IMG/VR virus record: IMGVR_UViG_3300044641_008508
Location: 1 to 21,952 of that record
Length of the DNA: 21,952 nt
Strand: one strand, 5' to 3'
Source: a virus
Shown here in pieces: positions 1 to 20,128 of this stretch. The notes under the pieces are model-generated. The model did not search any database. It saw nothing but the letters and a program-made list of their open reading frames with translations, and was not told the origin of the DNA. How positions within the stretch are numbered: the stretch's first letter is position 1; every line of letters begins with the position of its first letter. The position numbers were made by a program, and so were the translations under genes.

Positions 1-168
1 AAATTCATTCGTGATTAGATAAGTTTCGTATGCTTTCTTTATATCATAACCCTATATGATAAGAATGTCAAATTCATTCGTGATTAGATAAGTTTCGTAG
101 AGATCTTTATAGAGCTTTCGAAACCTGAAGAATAAGTATAAATCATTCGTGTATAATAGTTTTAGTTT
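1..168. repeat. 30-bp direct repeat, 69-bp period, with degenerate third copy
   Basis: Bases 1-30 and 70-99 are identical over 30 bp. A third, degenerate copy falls in register near 139-168 and keeps mainly the CATTCGTG core (6-13, 75-82, 144-151, exactly 69 bp apart). The 39-bp intervals between copies are unrelated to each other. The window begins at the first base of a copy, so the array may extend upstream. The stretch has stops in all frames and no gene is seen. The repeat is not palindromic. Function unknown. Confidence 0.8.
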
Positions 169-289: not shown

Positions 290-457
290 ATGATGAATTC
301 GTATCTTTCTTCTCAAAAGCAACGTTATCGTATCACATTAGAATTGGATGTGATGAGTGATTTTAATCCTCATCAGATTGAATGGAATAAACTCTTTGAG
401 CTTGAACCTAATGAATCAGTAGAGAGTTATGTAGAAGATCTCTCTGTTCGTTGGTAA
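290..457 (+). CDS. Small conserved cyanophage-type hypothetical protein (55 aa)
   Basis: This short reading frame encodes a 55-residue acidic protein that resembles a small conserved protein of T4-like cyanophages, as I remember it. No catalytic motif, signal peptide or membrane segment is visible. A core of the type YRITLELDV followed by DFNPHQIEW suggests a small beta-alpha fold. The second codon is also ATG (293), so a 54-residue form is possible; neither start has a clear Shine-Dalgarno sequence. It sits about 30 nt downstream of a near-consensus sigma-70 promoter and is followed by an inverted repeat (474-527), which suggests a one-gene early transcript. Function unknown. I am fairly sure it is a real gene because of the promoter and the protein-like composition. 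Confidence 0.7.
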   Translation: MMNSYLSSQKQRYRITLELDVMSDFNPHQIEWNKLFELEPNESVESYVEDLSVRW

Positions 458-473
458 TAGTTTATCATCAGAA

Positions 474-527
474 CAGTTCTTTATATTCTTTATGCTTGAT
501 GTTGTTTGTATAAAATATAAAGAACTG
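474..527. repeat. 12-nt perfect inverted repeat after the small gene
   Basis: Bases 474-485 (CAGTTCTTTATA) are the exact reverse complement of 516-527 (TATAAAGAACTG), with a 30-nt loop. It lies 17 nt past the stop of the 55-aa gene and could act as an mRNA 3' end. It is also the left edge of the TATAAAGAA array, so it may exist because that motif occurs in both orientations. Confidence 0.7.
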
Positions 528-558
528 ATTCATTCGTCGTGTAAAGAACTGATGTTCG

Positions 559-626
559 TGTAAAAAATAACACAGAAATTGCGATTGTAAGTATAAAGAA
601 TTGCAATTTATGTGTTATTTTTATTT
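559..626 (+). other. Long hairpin within the array (24-bp stem)
   Basis: Bases 563-582 pair with 603-622 at 19 of 20 positions (mismatch 575/610). The stem extends inward by a G-U pair at 583/602 and three A-T pairs (584-586 with 599-601), leaving a 12-nt loop that contains most of a TATAAAGAA core. The T-rich 3' side and following T-rich bases could make it a terminator or a stable RNA element. It is far longer than expected by chance. Confidence 0.7.
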
Positions 627-715
627 TTATTCGTTCTAAAATAGTATAAAGAATTGCGTTAAGTATAAAGAATAACACTAAGATGTCGTCGTTTAGATGT
701 TTTTTTCGTCCTAAG

Positions 716-814
716 TATAAAGAATAACAGTGTAATTAACACGATTATATGTTTTATTCGTGTGTTGTTATTCGTTTATAGACAGTTATTTTATGTTGTT
801 TGTTATTCTTTATA
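716..814. repeat. 14-nt inverted repeat pair in the array
   Basis: Bases 716-729 (TATAAAGAATAACA) are exactly complementary to 801-814. The same sequence also pairs with 766-780 with one bulged G (774), and an identical forward copy lies at 664-677. The region can therefore fold in alternative ways. Confidence 0.7.
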
Positions 815-871: not shown

Positions 872-985
872 TTATAAAAAATCGAATACTACCCTAACCT
901 ACAGAGGTGACAATTCGAGAGAGTGATTATCTTTCAAATAAAAAAAATTTCAGTAAATTTTTTCCCCCAAAAAGTTGATTAAATT

Positions 986-6412: not shown

Positions 6413-9400
6413 ATGGAAAATACTAGAATTAAAATTAGTTCTATTGTAGAAAGTCAGCTTCCCCTTTTTGTAAGAGATGACTATCCTCTTGTTGCAGAAC
6501 TTCTTACTGAATACTATAGATCATTAGAATCTAAAGGTTCTTCATATGATTTATTACAAAATATTGATCAATATGTAAAAGTAAATAATTTATCAAATTT
6601 AGTAGAAAATACAACTCTTACATCGGACATTGATTTGATAGATGATGTCATTTATGTAGACAATACTGAAGGTTTTCCAAATACATATGGATTGATTTAT
6701 ATTGACAATGAGATTATTCTTTACAAATCTAAGACTTTAACATCATTCAATGAATGTGTTAGGGGATTTAGTGGTATAACTGAATTTTCAGTAGGGAATA
6801 CTGAAGATTTCTCTTTCAGTGCTACGGAAAGAGAAAGTCATATTTCAGAGACATTAGTTGTAAATTTAAGTTCTTTATTTCTAAAAGAATTTTTTCTGAA
6901 GACTAAAAAACAATTTTTACCTGGATTTGATGGAAGAGAACTATACGAAAATCTAAATGAAAATATATTTTTAAAACAATCAAAAGATTTTTATACATCA
7001 AAAGGAACTGACAGGTCTTTTGAGATTTTATTTCGTGTTCTATATGGTAAAAATGTTGATGTCATTTTACCAAAAGATTATTTAATAAAGCCTTCAAATG
7101 CAGAATATAGAGTAACAAGGAATATTGTTGTAGAGTCAATAGAAGGTGATGTTGAATTATTAAAAAATAAAACAATATTCCAAGACAAATATGAAAATAT
7201 TCCAAAATCGTTTGGAACTGTTGTAGCTATTGAGAAATTAATAAAAAATGAAAAAGAATATTATATTCTAAAGTTGGACTATGATTTTGATAAAGATATT
7301 AGTGTTTCTGGTTCAATTTTTGGTGAATTAAAAATTCACCCAAAAACTAAAATTATTGATGATTTAATAATCAATTCAGATACAATAATTGTAGATTCAA
7401 CTTTAGGTTTTTCTTCATCTGGAACTCTATCAATCAAAGGTAGTTCTGATTATATTTTAGTTACATATAATGGAAAAACTGTTAATCAATTTTTAAATTG
7501 TTCTGGAATTGTAGAAAACTTTACTTCAGGAACAGAGATTTATGAAAATGTATACGCATATGGTTATTCAAAGATAAATGGTATAAAGCAAAAAATAAAA
7601 TTTAGAATTAATGGTGTTTTATCTGATATTGAATTGCCAGATAATACTTTTTATTATCAAAAAGATGATACTGGAAGAATTATAACTCTTGGGTATAATG
7701 AAAATTCATTTAAAGATAATAATTGGATTTTTAATAAAACTGTAAGATGTAATGTTAAAAATTTTACTCCAGATGGAAATTTTACATATAATATAGAAAC
7801 ATATGATGATAATGGAATTTATTCTGGAGATTCTGTTGAAATAGAATATTTAAATCAAACTAATGGAAGTAGAGAAACTTTAATATCTCAGGCGTTAATT
7901 CCATCTGGTAGTATACCAAGAAAAACATTTAAAATCACCACAAATGGAATTAGTATATCAAATATATTTTCAGTTAAAAGATTAATACGAAAATATTCAA
8001 ATAAGTATGTAACTGATGTTTTAAACGTATACAAAAATTTAAATGAGGATGAAATTTTTATTACATCATCATCATTACCATCTTATCTTACTCCAGATAC
8101 ATTAAAAACATTCAAGTATACTTTGAGTGGATTATTTTCTGGAGATACTATAGACATTCAGAATCACGGATTTATTACTGGTGATGAAATAGAATATAAA
8201 TTTGAAAATTCTAATCAAAGTCTTGGTATTTCTTCTGGTGTATATTATGTTAAAAAAATTAATGGTTCTCAATCTCAATTAAAACTCTCTAGGAGTAAAT
8301 ATGACATTGAAAGTGAGAAATTTGTCAGTATAGGTGCAACTAATTTAGATATTTCATCAAATAATACTATATCTTTATTAAGATTATCAAAAGAGAATGA
8401 TTCTATAGATTCCCAAAGACTTGTTAGAGTAATAAAAAGTCCCATAAACGATGGTAACACTTATAAAACGCCAACAGGAACAACTGGAATTTTAATTAAT
8501 GGTGTTGAAATTTTAAATTATAAATCAAATGATTTTGTTCATTATGGTCCAATTAAATCAATAGAAGTATTATCTCCAGGAAATAATTATGATGTCATAA
8601 ATCCCCCTAGTCTTGAAATCTCTTCTTCGATTGGATCAACAGCAAGGGGTTACTGTGGAGTAGAGGGTTCTCTGAATAAAATTAACATTATAGATGGTGG
8701 ATTTGATTATATTGATACTCCATTAATTACTATATCTGGTGGTGGTGGATTTGGAGCAAAAGCGTTTGTAAAGATGGTTTCATATGAACATTTTATAGAT
8801 TTTAATTCATCATCATCAAATTCGAATATTTCATTATCTAATGATGTTATTGGATTCTCAACATCTCATAAATTTAGAGATGGTGAATCTGTAATCTATC
8901 AAACATCAAATAATCAACCAATTGGTGGATTAAATACTGATGCAAAATATTTTGTCAAAGTAATAGATGATAACAGAATAAAACTACATAAATCTTACAA
9001 CGAATCAATTGTAGGTATTAACACAATAAACATAACATCGTTTGGAGTTGGAAATCATAGATTTAATTCCACAAACAAAAAGAAAAAAATTGATTCTATT
9101 GTAATTGAAAGTGAAGGAAGTGATTATAAGAATAAGAAAATATCAATTCCATCATCAGGAATAAACACGACAAATAATACTATAAACTCTGAGCAAATTC
9201 CTTATGTTGATGGTGACATTATATATTATTACGGTGGAACAACTAATATAAGTGGATTATCTACAGGAAGTTATTATATAACAAAAGTCGATGAGACTTC
9301 GTTTAAATTATCTCAAGTTGGAGTTGGTTCCACTTCAAGAGACTTTTATTATAGAACAAACCAATATGTAGATTTAAAATCAAATGGTGTAGGTAATCAT

Positions 9401-18574: not shown

Positions 18575-20128
18575 ATGTCAGCTATAATAACAGATCAATT
18601 TAGAATATTAAGTGCAGCAAATTTTATCACATCTATTGCCTCCACTTCAAATTCTTATTATTCTTTTGTTGGTTTAACAAATGCTACTGATTACAGCTCT
18701 ACTTGGGAGACAAATCCTTCTTCTCCAATAGATTCATTTGATAGTTATAATGATATTTGGGATACAGTTGTTGCATTGAAAAAAATTAATAATGATGACA
18801 TCAGGCAAGTAGTAAAAAGAATTGAATGGCAATCTGGAACAACATATGATTTGTATCGCCAGGATATTAGTGTAAATAGAGTTTCAACTGCCTCAAGTAG
18901 AACAAGTCTATATGAGTCTAATTTTTATGTAATGAATAGTGATTATAGGGTTTATATTTGTTTACATAATGGTAAAGACCCAGAAAATCCAAAAGGTAAA
19001 CCTTCTTTGGATGAGCCATTATTCACTGATTTGGAACCAAGAAGTGCTGGATTAAGTGGTGATGGATATATATGGAAATATCTTTATACAATAAAACCAA
19101 ATGATTTAATTAAATTTGATTCTTTGAATTTTATTCCTGTTCCTAAAGATTGGAATACAAATTTAGAAAACGCTTCTGTCAGAGAACATTCTGATGCGTC
19201 TAAGAGTGGACAATTAAAAGTAATAACAATTACAAATAGAGGAAGTGGCTTAGGAAATGCAAAAACTTACACTAATGTTCCAATTTTGGGTGATGGTTCA
19301 GGTGCTAAAGCAACAATAGTAGTTGGAAATGATTCCACAGTAGAGTCTATAGATGTAACAACTGGAGGAAGTGGATATACCTATGGAATTGTAGATTTAA
19401 ATTCTGCTGGAATTACTGGAAATATTTTACCCACATTTGATGTGATTATTCCCCCTACTGGTGGGCACGGATTTGATATTTACCAAGAATTGGGGGCAAA
19501 AAATGTTTTAGTATATTCTAGAATTGAAAATGATGATTTAAATCCAGACTTTATAACTGGAAATAAAATAGCAAGAGTTGGTATAATAAAAAATCCAGTC
19601 TCTTATGGAACAACAACACTATTAAATCAACAAAAAGTAAGTAATACATATGCATTAAAAGTTGGTGCTGGATATAGTAATGCAACGTTTAATGCAAATT
19701 CAGTAATAACTCAAACAATTTCTACAGGCCAAACTGCTGTTGGTAAAGTAGTTTCATATGATAACAAAACTGGAGTTTTGAAATATTGGCAAGATAGGTC
19801 ATTTGTTGGATTTACAAGTGGAACTAGTAATTTATCATTTACACCACAATATGGATATAATTTATATCGTTTTACTTCAAGTCCAGGAACTGGAGGTTCA
19901 AATATTATAGTAGGAACATCAAATAATCTTCCCATTGATACTTCATTCACTGGTATAAGTACAACTATAAATAATAGAACATATAATCTTGGTCAGTATT
20001 TTGAGAGTGGAATTTCATATCCAGAAGTAAAAAAATATTCTGGAGATATGATTTACATTGATAATAGACCATCTATTACTAGGTCATTAAACCAAAAAGA
20101 AGATATCAAAGTTATTTTGCAATTCTAA
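18575..20128 (+). CDS. 8: Baseplate wedge subunit gp8, with insertions (517 aa)
   Basis: gp8 binds as a dimer to the outer part of the wedge and joins gp7 and gp10. T4 gp8 has 334 residues. Residues 112-130 (LYESNFYVMNSDYRVYICL) and 163-190 (DGYIWKYLYTI, then FIPVP) match its conserved core (T4 GDGYVWEYLFEI), FITGNKIARVGIIKNPV near 325-341 matches T4 GNKGFRQISIITNPLE, and the last 31 residues (SGDMIYIDNRP, then a Q-E-I strand) match T4 SGEMIYMENRPP to its C-terminus. About 180 extra residues lie in two insertions. The first, about 208-290, is a Gly-Tyr repeat (TTGGSGYTYG) like those of the two giant proteins. It has a late-promoter-like box upstream and is followed after 9 nt by the next structural gene. 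Confidence 0.92.
   Translation: MSAIITDQFRILSAANFITSIASTSNSYYSFVGLTNATDYSSTWETNPSSPIDSFDSYNDIWDTVVALKKINNDDIRQVVKRIEWQSGTTYDLYRQDISVNRVSTASSRTSLYESNFYVMNSDYRVYICLHNGKDPENPKGKPSLDEPLFTDLEPRSAGLSGDGYIWKYLYTIKPNDLIKFDSLNFIPVPKDWNTNLENASVREHSDASKSGQLKVITITNRGSGLGNAKTYTNVPILGDGSGAKATIVVGNDSTVESIDVTTGGSGYTYGIVDLNSAGITGNILPTFDVIIPPTGGHGFDIYQELGAKNVLVYSRIENDDLNPDFITGNKIARVGIIKNPVSYGTTTLLNQQKVSNTYALKVGAGYSNATFNANSVITQTISTGQTAVGKVVSYDNKTGVLKYWQDRSFVGFTSGTSNLSFTPQYGYNLYRFTSSPGTGGSNIIVGTSNNLPIDTSFTGISTTINNRTYNLGQYFESGISYPEVKKYSGDMIYIDNRPSITRSLNQKEDIKVILQF

Follow-up and report, generated by a model that had tools for sequence, protein, structure and literature searches.

An array of a 9-mer core, TATAAAGAA, occupies positions 473-815 of the marine cyanophage DNA analysed here (the window, i.e. 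the whole 21,952-base stretch of IMG/VR virus record IMGVR_UViG_3300044641_008508), and the matching tags that adjoin its copies either pair as hairpin arms or go back to local duplications. Arrays of the same core stand at the same place in relatives, whose freshwater hairpins covary and keep one strand, and the array diverges much faster than its flanks. The locus, which extends from an early-type 55-aa gene to a 25-mer before the gp25 baseplate module, is best read as a fixed, repeat-rich non-coding hub of the Kyanoviridae. For the array itself we tentatively favour a cluster of transcribed hairpins that act in cis where early genes give way to late ones, and that turn over fast; here we infer the transcription, the cis role and the mechanism of the turnover.

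The array and its locus

The window is a fragment of a T4-like cyanophage of the Kyanoviridae, as judged from its open reading frames and from the gene order that it shares with the Synechococcus phages Bellamy, S-SM2 and S-SCSM1. The ORFs include a gp25-like, a gp6-like and a very large baseplate-type protein as well as a 255-aa protein of T4-GC 102 (GC102 below). Two conserved features flank the array: a 55-aa ORF before it and, after it, a 25-mer whose conservation is strong. The gene for gp25 lies further downstream. The serial order is promoter, 55-aa ORF, array, a GC-rich stretch, TATAAAAA, 25-mer, an HNH homing-type endonuclease gene (986-1726), small ORFs, GC102 (at 2224) and the gp25 module. 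The features are as follows; L374 is a sibling of the window.

35-43, minus strand: isolated copy of the core TATAAAGAA
232-260: sigma-70-like promoter, preceding the 55-aa ORF
290-457, plus strand: 55-aa ORF directly 5' of the array, syntenic with Bellamy gp103, S-SM2_088 and S-SCSM1_4
474-527, plus strand: hairpin A, arms 474-492 and 509-527 (19 nt, 89% complementary), loop 493-508
477-485, minus strand: core TATAAAGAA, tag CTG, 5' arm of hairpin A; TTCTTTGTA in L374
516-524, plus strand: core TATAAAGAA, tag CTGAT, 3' arm of hairpin A
540-548, plus strand: variant core TGTAAAGAA, tag CTGAT; TATAAAGAA in L374
563-622, plus strand: hairpin B, arms 563-586 and 599-622 (24 nt, 92% complementary); the core at 592 spans loop and 3' arm
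592-600, plus strand: core TATAAAGAA, tag TTGC
645-653, plus strand: core TATAAAGAA, tag TTGC; TATAAACAA in L374
660-761, plus strand: diverged 52-bp tandem duplication (660-709 and 712-761, 76% identity) that carries the TAACA pair
664-677, plus strand: core TATAAAGAA with tag TAACA, pairing with 801-814 at 14 of 14 bases
716-729, plus strand: core TATAAAGAA with tag TAACA, alternative 14/14 partner of 801-814
801-814, minus strand: reverse core (806-814) with tag TAACA, closing arm of the 3' hairpin or hairpins
898-922, plus strand: 25-mer CCTAACCTACAGAGGTGACAATTCG, downstream of the array, present in at least 119 IMG/VR stretches

The exact core occurs seven times within 338 bp and eight times in the whole 22 kb window, where 1.45 copies are expected and the largest count in shuffled sequences was 5. 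The array reported in a preliminary description of this DNA is therefore real, and its figure of about ten copies counting variants is a fair count. The tags were also correctly assigned there, i.e. CTGAT (516, 540), TTGC (592, 645) and TAACA (664, 716), with reverse copies that carry the matching tags CTG (477) and TAACA (806). Along the array the copies are oriented -,+,+,+,+,+,+,- and spaced by 39, 24, 52, 53, 19, 52 and 90 bp. The spacing of about 52 bp that had been pointed out is present at 540-592-645 and 664-716 (52, 53 and 52) but not at 516-540 (24) or 645-664 (19), and the core spacings in relatives are 24, 28, 34, 37 or 76. Since the other spacings in the window and those in the relatives differ from it, 52 bp is not a conserved period.

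The 25-mer is near-invariant and non-coding, and in cyanophage stretches it follows the TATAAAAA box by about 20 bp; it is a candidate conserved leader or origin element. HNH homing-type endonucleases recur at the array locus: the gene in the window adjoins the 25-mer, L369 has a short remnant ORF of the HNH type (about 768-868), and in the freshwater phage S-SRM01 the array is replaced by an HNH gene (91021-91458), close to which a single stray core persists. The palindromes TCTCGTCGAGA and TCTCGACGAGA are clustered in a non-coding part of S-SRM01 (90907-91006), and stretches similar to TCTCGTCGAGA were also seen in L207 and L230. Two copies of a 30-nt repeat, AAATTCATTCGTGATTAGATAAGTTTCGTA, lie within positions 1-99 of the window; in L374 this repeat is included in a 69-bp tandem array, and a perfect 32-bp tandem array lies further upstream (regions 7520-7761 and 8555-8669 of L374). 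No tRNA or tmRNA was found in the window, a search of positions 1-2300 against Rfam 15 gave only sub-threshold matches at chance level, and positions 458-815 contain neither terminator-like sites nor plus-strand promoters.

Hairpins, turnover and covariation

The array region folds more stably than its dinucleotide shuffles (z = -6.0 on the plus strand and -6.9 on the minus strand); as both strands fold well, RNA and DNA cannot be told apart from the window alone. On opposite-strand copies the tags match by pairing with each other, as the two arms of hairpins, and the equal tags of neighbouring forward copies come from short local duplications: in a repeat search the TTGC pair fell within 15-nt and the CTGAT pair within 12-nt local repeats. 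The 9-mer is best explained as the shared lower stem, or the apical part, of each hairpin, with the tags as adjoining stem bases. In other words, the suggestion of hairpins in the preliminary description was borne out by pairing, by folding and by tags that co-vary in relatives (see below), whereas its notion of tags as recognition codes between partners gives way to hairpin arms and duplications. Paired recombination sites found no support, the sole candidate enzyme seen in the window being the HNH homing-type endonuclease, and iterons in the form that was proposed do not agree with the mixed orientation, the irregular spacing and the cores that change faster than their flanks. The array is an example of how hairpin arms can pass for matched recognition tags when a sequence is read on its own.

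The turnover of the array is seen in the comparison with L374, which shares 97.6% identity with the window across 7.5 kb. Within positions 1-1726 of the window, 13 of 358 array positions are substituted as compared to 5 of 1357 in the rest (odds ratio 10, p = 4e-6), and three of the 13 substitutions fall in cores. The array thus diverges about 10-fold faster than the flanks, so the individual cores are not strictly conserved. Besides a mutation hot spot it is possible that the array alone was recombined from another strain. For the maintenance of pairing in the window itself the comparison is confined to these two siblings: two of the L374 differences in hairpin A, A-to-G changes at 483 and 515, replace U-A pairs by U-G or G-U on the plus strand, and the single G-A mismatch of hairpin B (at 610) is G-C in L374.

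Folding was also compared among 67 distinct marine relatives, using the 300 nt upstream of the 25-mer and 25 shuffles each. The lowest z values were those of L065 (-9.4), the window (-8.2, rank 2), L118 (-6.7) and L096 (-5.7), and the median was -1.7. These four top folders all have hairpins of the TATAAAGAA or TATAACGAA type: TATAAAGAA hairpins were found in L065, the window and L096, and in L118 the related TATAACGAAC sits in a hairpin loop. The preliminary description had held that relatives without the core, or tags varying independently, would speak against it. Neither is seen where arrays exist, but the core is absent from the array locus of most marine relatives and is therefore dispensable for the family. 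Other repeats were noted as well. In another lineage (L017, L042, L104, L105 and L058) a stretch of 500 bp that lies about 2-2.8 kb before GC102 holds 6-7 copies of TGAGAATCA, and in S-PM2 (L379 21529-24620) a repeated promoter-leader unit similar to TATAATGACTTCAGTTCAAACGAAACGACCCATGACC precedes many small genes upstream of gp25.

A scan for spaced copies of TATAAAGAA returned mostly unrelated AT-rich contigs, and only contigs with syntenic genes were taken as relatives. Several contigs with clustered TATAAAGAA are cyanophages with arrays upstream of the same GC102 and gp25 genes, and their GC102 is nearest to that of S-SRM01. In contigs of 83-175 kb the motif GTATAAAGAAY has 3-5 clustered copies at the array locus and few elsewhere, and a genome-wide, dispersed motif was rejected on this ground. 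Two freshwater hairpins recur. HP1 consists of TATAAAGAATTAAGAA, a short loop and TTCTTAATTCTTTATA. In HP2 a stem of about 15 bp stands on TATAAAGAATTA/TAATTCTTTATA and ends in a loop, TTATNGTCAGTGGTGTGGTTNATTC, that hardly varies. A search with the loop pattern gave 42 IMG/VR stretches, and with further loci the set comprises 46 loci (among them L137, 1372-1446) and 31 distinct sequences; the invariant part of the loop is GTCAGTGGTGTGGTT.

Covariation in HP2 was calculated from 20 sequences (18 distinct). In its 12 stem pairs 98.6% of the stem cells are paired, and six of the pairs are changed on both sides (covariation score of HP2 0.436 as compared to 0.214 in shuffled data, reached in 0 of 500 shuffles); pairing collapses when the structures are slid as a control. 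The tags vary together with their partners, as TTA/TAA, TAA/TTA and CTAA/TTAG in the stem extensions of HP2 and as TTAAG/CTTAA versus TAGAG/CTCTA in HP1. In the 40 convergent core pairs of all arrays, a few of them on contigs whose available stretch carries no syntenic genes, 175 tag matches between forward and reverse partners were counted versus 129 +/- 7 after shuffling of partners (0 of 2000). We note that the sequences are phylogenetically related, so these covariation counts are not independent events.

The stem of freshwater HP2 is kept up by compensatory changes and it has a strand preference. Cells with G-U outnumber those with A-C in HP2 (15 versus 3) as well as in HP1 (3 versus 1), and HP2, which lies 1.2-3.4 kb upstream of GC102, has the orientation of that gene in 40 of 40 loci. 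Both the G-U excess and the fixed orientation speak for RNA and against a DNA cruciform, but neither is decisive. HP2 had no Rfam match at the gathering score in nine relatives, its loop was not found in GTDB genomes, and GenBank phages gave no homologue of either array, only weak AT-rich chance matches. Freshwater HP2 is a conserved, RNA-like and apparently undescribed hairpin on the same core and at the same place. The window has no homologue of it (E = 2.2), which means that the strongest covariation evidence comes from the relatives; a weak match was found in the marine L050 at the array position (E 0.0027 to 0.035).

Explanations of the array

If the array is a cluster of cis-acting hairpins, transcription from the early promoter (232-260) would run along the plus strand across the 55-aa ORF and then the array, and the hairpins, as structured RNA, would have their effect in cis between early and late genes. 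Candidate roles are to protect or set the 3' end of the early mRNA or to insulate the late leader. The core copies would turn over fast by duplication and hairpin-templated mutation, and with such a turnover we propose that the shape is kept and not the individual copies. Mutation could also be the whole story: at an intergenic site rich in AT, slippage and the template switching of quasi-palindromes would make and correct inverted and direct repeats, so that the array may be a self-made product without function. We consider this unlikely, even if a fast-changing array could be neutral or shaped by mutation only. The 10-fold divergence over the flanks, the hairpin B mismatch of the window that is paired in L374, the local duplications and the HNH gene that replaces the array in S-SRM01 are all in line with it. 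On the other hand, distant relatives, marine as well as freshwater, share the core at this one locus and have scarcely any copies in the rest of their genomes, and neutral template switching does not predict a near-invariant HP2 loop with a covarying stem and a fixed orientation. Mobile regulatory cassettes, i.e. T4-type PeSLs or MITE/REP-like hairpins that insert into intergenic spaces, seem highly improbable. L065 has two oppositely oriented hairpins whose stems are GC-rich and whose loops are TATAAAGAAC, with T-rich DNA after the first of them, and PeSLs have been discussed for cyanophage S-PM2; nevertheless, the array of the window has no terminator-like site and no plus-strand promoter inside, and the copies are found at one locus per genome instead of being dispersed.

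A replication origin, with the array as an iteron-like or DNA-unwinding part that is recognised as DNA and with hairpins that reflect protein-binding dyads or cruciforms, is a possible but rather doubtful explanation of the locus. Most cyanobacteria have TTTTCCACA as their DnaA box (PMC4674748). Two of the three boxes in the genome of S-SM2 are at the array locus, 21 bp apart; in several contigs of 15-47 kb all boxes are there and spacings of 21 or 42 bp recur, and S-PM2 has three within 34 bp upstream of gp25. L369 carries a 49-bp tandem unit in which TATAAAGAA, TGTAAAGAACT and a DnaA box stand together, and L374 has its 32-bp and 69-bp tandem arrays and more than 1 kb without convincing ORFs just upstream. 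The read depth of S-PM2 rises 2-3 fold adjoining this part of the genome, which its authors ascribe to terminal redundancy (PMC4503421). Against these observations, neither Bellamy nor any of 7 further complete cyanophages has a DnaA box at the locus, for which reason DnaA boxes were rejected as a universal feature of the locus. The GC skew of S-SRM01 is nearly uniformly positive without a switch at the locus, the copies are of mixed orientation and irregular spacing with cores that vary faster than the flanks, and the G-U bias and the fixed orientation of HP2 favour RNA. A putative origin at this place is plausible in part of the Kyanoviridae. The DnaA-box clusters, which are origin candidates, include those of L005 (1730-1760), L379 (S-PM2, 19231-19264), L097, L009, L077 and others. 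In the collection of papers that was searched, none joins cyanophage, origin of replication and DnaA box.

It is also conceivable, but quite improbable, that cyanophages encode at this locus a new family of regulatory RNAs, of which the array of the window would be a diverged marine form. The loop GTCAGTGGTGTGGTT of the freshwater HP2 could, as a hypothesis, pair with the 5' leaders of many early mRNAs, whose genes lie just upstream of it, and switch them off; a loop of this kind would be a phage-encoded multi-target antisense RNA. The complement of the loop, AACCACACCACTGAC, has 54 sense sites of at least 10 bases in 27 loci, 42 of which lie within 15 nt before an ATG, versus seven sites on the antisense strand and none before an ATG. 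The number of distinct 10-mer contexts was 36. Composition shuffles gave 0.7, but the reversed sequence, used as a control, gave 22, because the early-gene leaders are rich in CAC repeats.

Comparison with known systems

Replication origins and RNA-level control are hardly mapped in cyanophages. Since covarying hairpins and tandem repeats are concentrated here along with the conserved 25-mer, joined in some lineages by DnaA boxes, while the genome is otherwise packed with genes, the locus is a small and defined target for transcript and origin mapping and for deletion. The array resembles origin iterons and DnaA-box clusters in that a short motif is repeated in an AT-rich, ORF-poor region, and the L369 unit shares both core and DnaA box. 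It differs in the mixed orientation, the irregular spacing, the poor conservation of the copies and the lack of a GC-skew switch in S-SRM01; iterons are regular, helically phased direct repeats in one orientation, which the array of the window is not.

The BIME and REP palindromes of enterobacteria are inverted repeats whose stems are related; they form clusters between genes, and REPs are dispersed through genomes. The array is similar in its clusters and stems but is confined to a single locus, whereas dispersed elements such as REP and MITE occupy several loci per genome; GTATAAAGAAY is essentially restricted to the array locus in the 83-175 kb contigs.

PeSLs (promoter early stem-loops) of T4-type phages combine an early promoter with a stem-loop terminator (Arbiol 2010 and Comeau 2014, as cited in PMC4503421). 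From what is given there, the array is like them in having short intergenic stem-loops near early genes of T4-like phages, and unlike them in having no U-tract terminator-like hairpin, no promoter in the unit, one locus only and one shared AT-rich core; an early sigma-70 promoter followed by a stem-loop terminator in one unit is not present in 458-815. Another parallel is psbA of S-PM2, where a long inverted repeat, probably an RNA hairpin in the 5'-UTR, lies in an unusually long intergenic region (PMC5931967). That hairpin is single and upstream of psbA, and the cited part of the paper describes no shared core or array; what the two have in common are inverted repeats that probably form RNA hairpins in a long intergenic region of a cyanophage.
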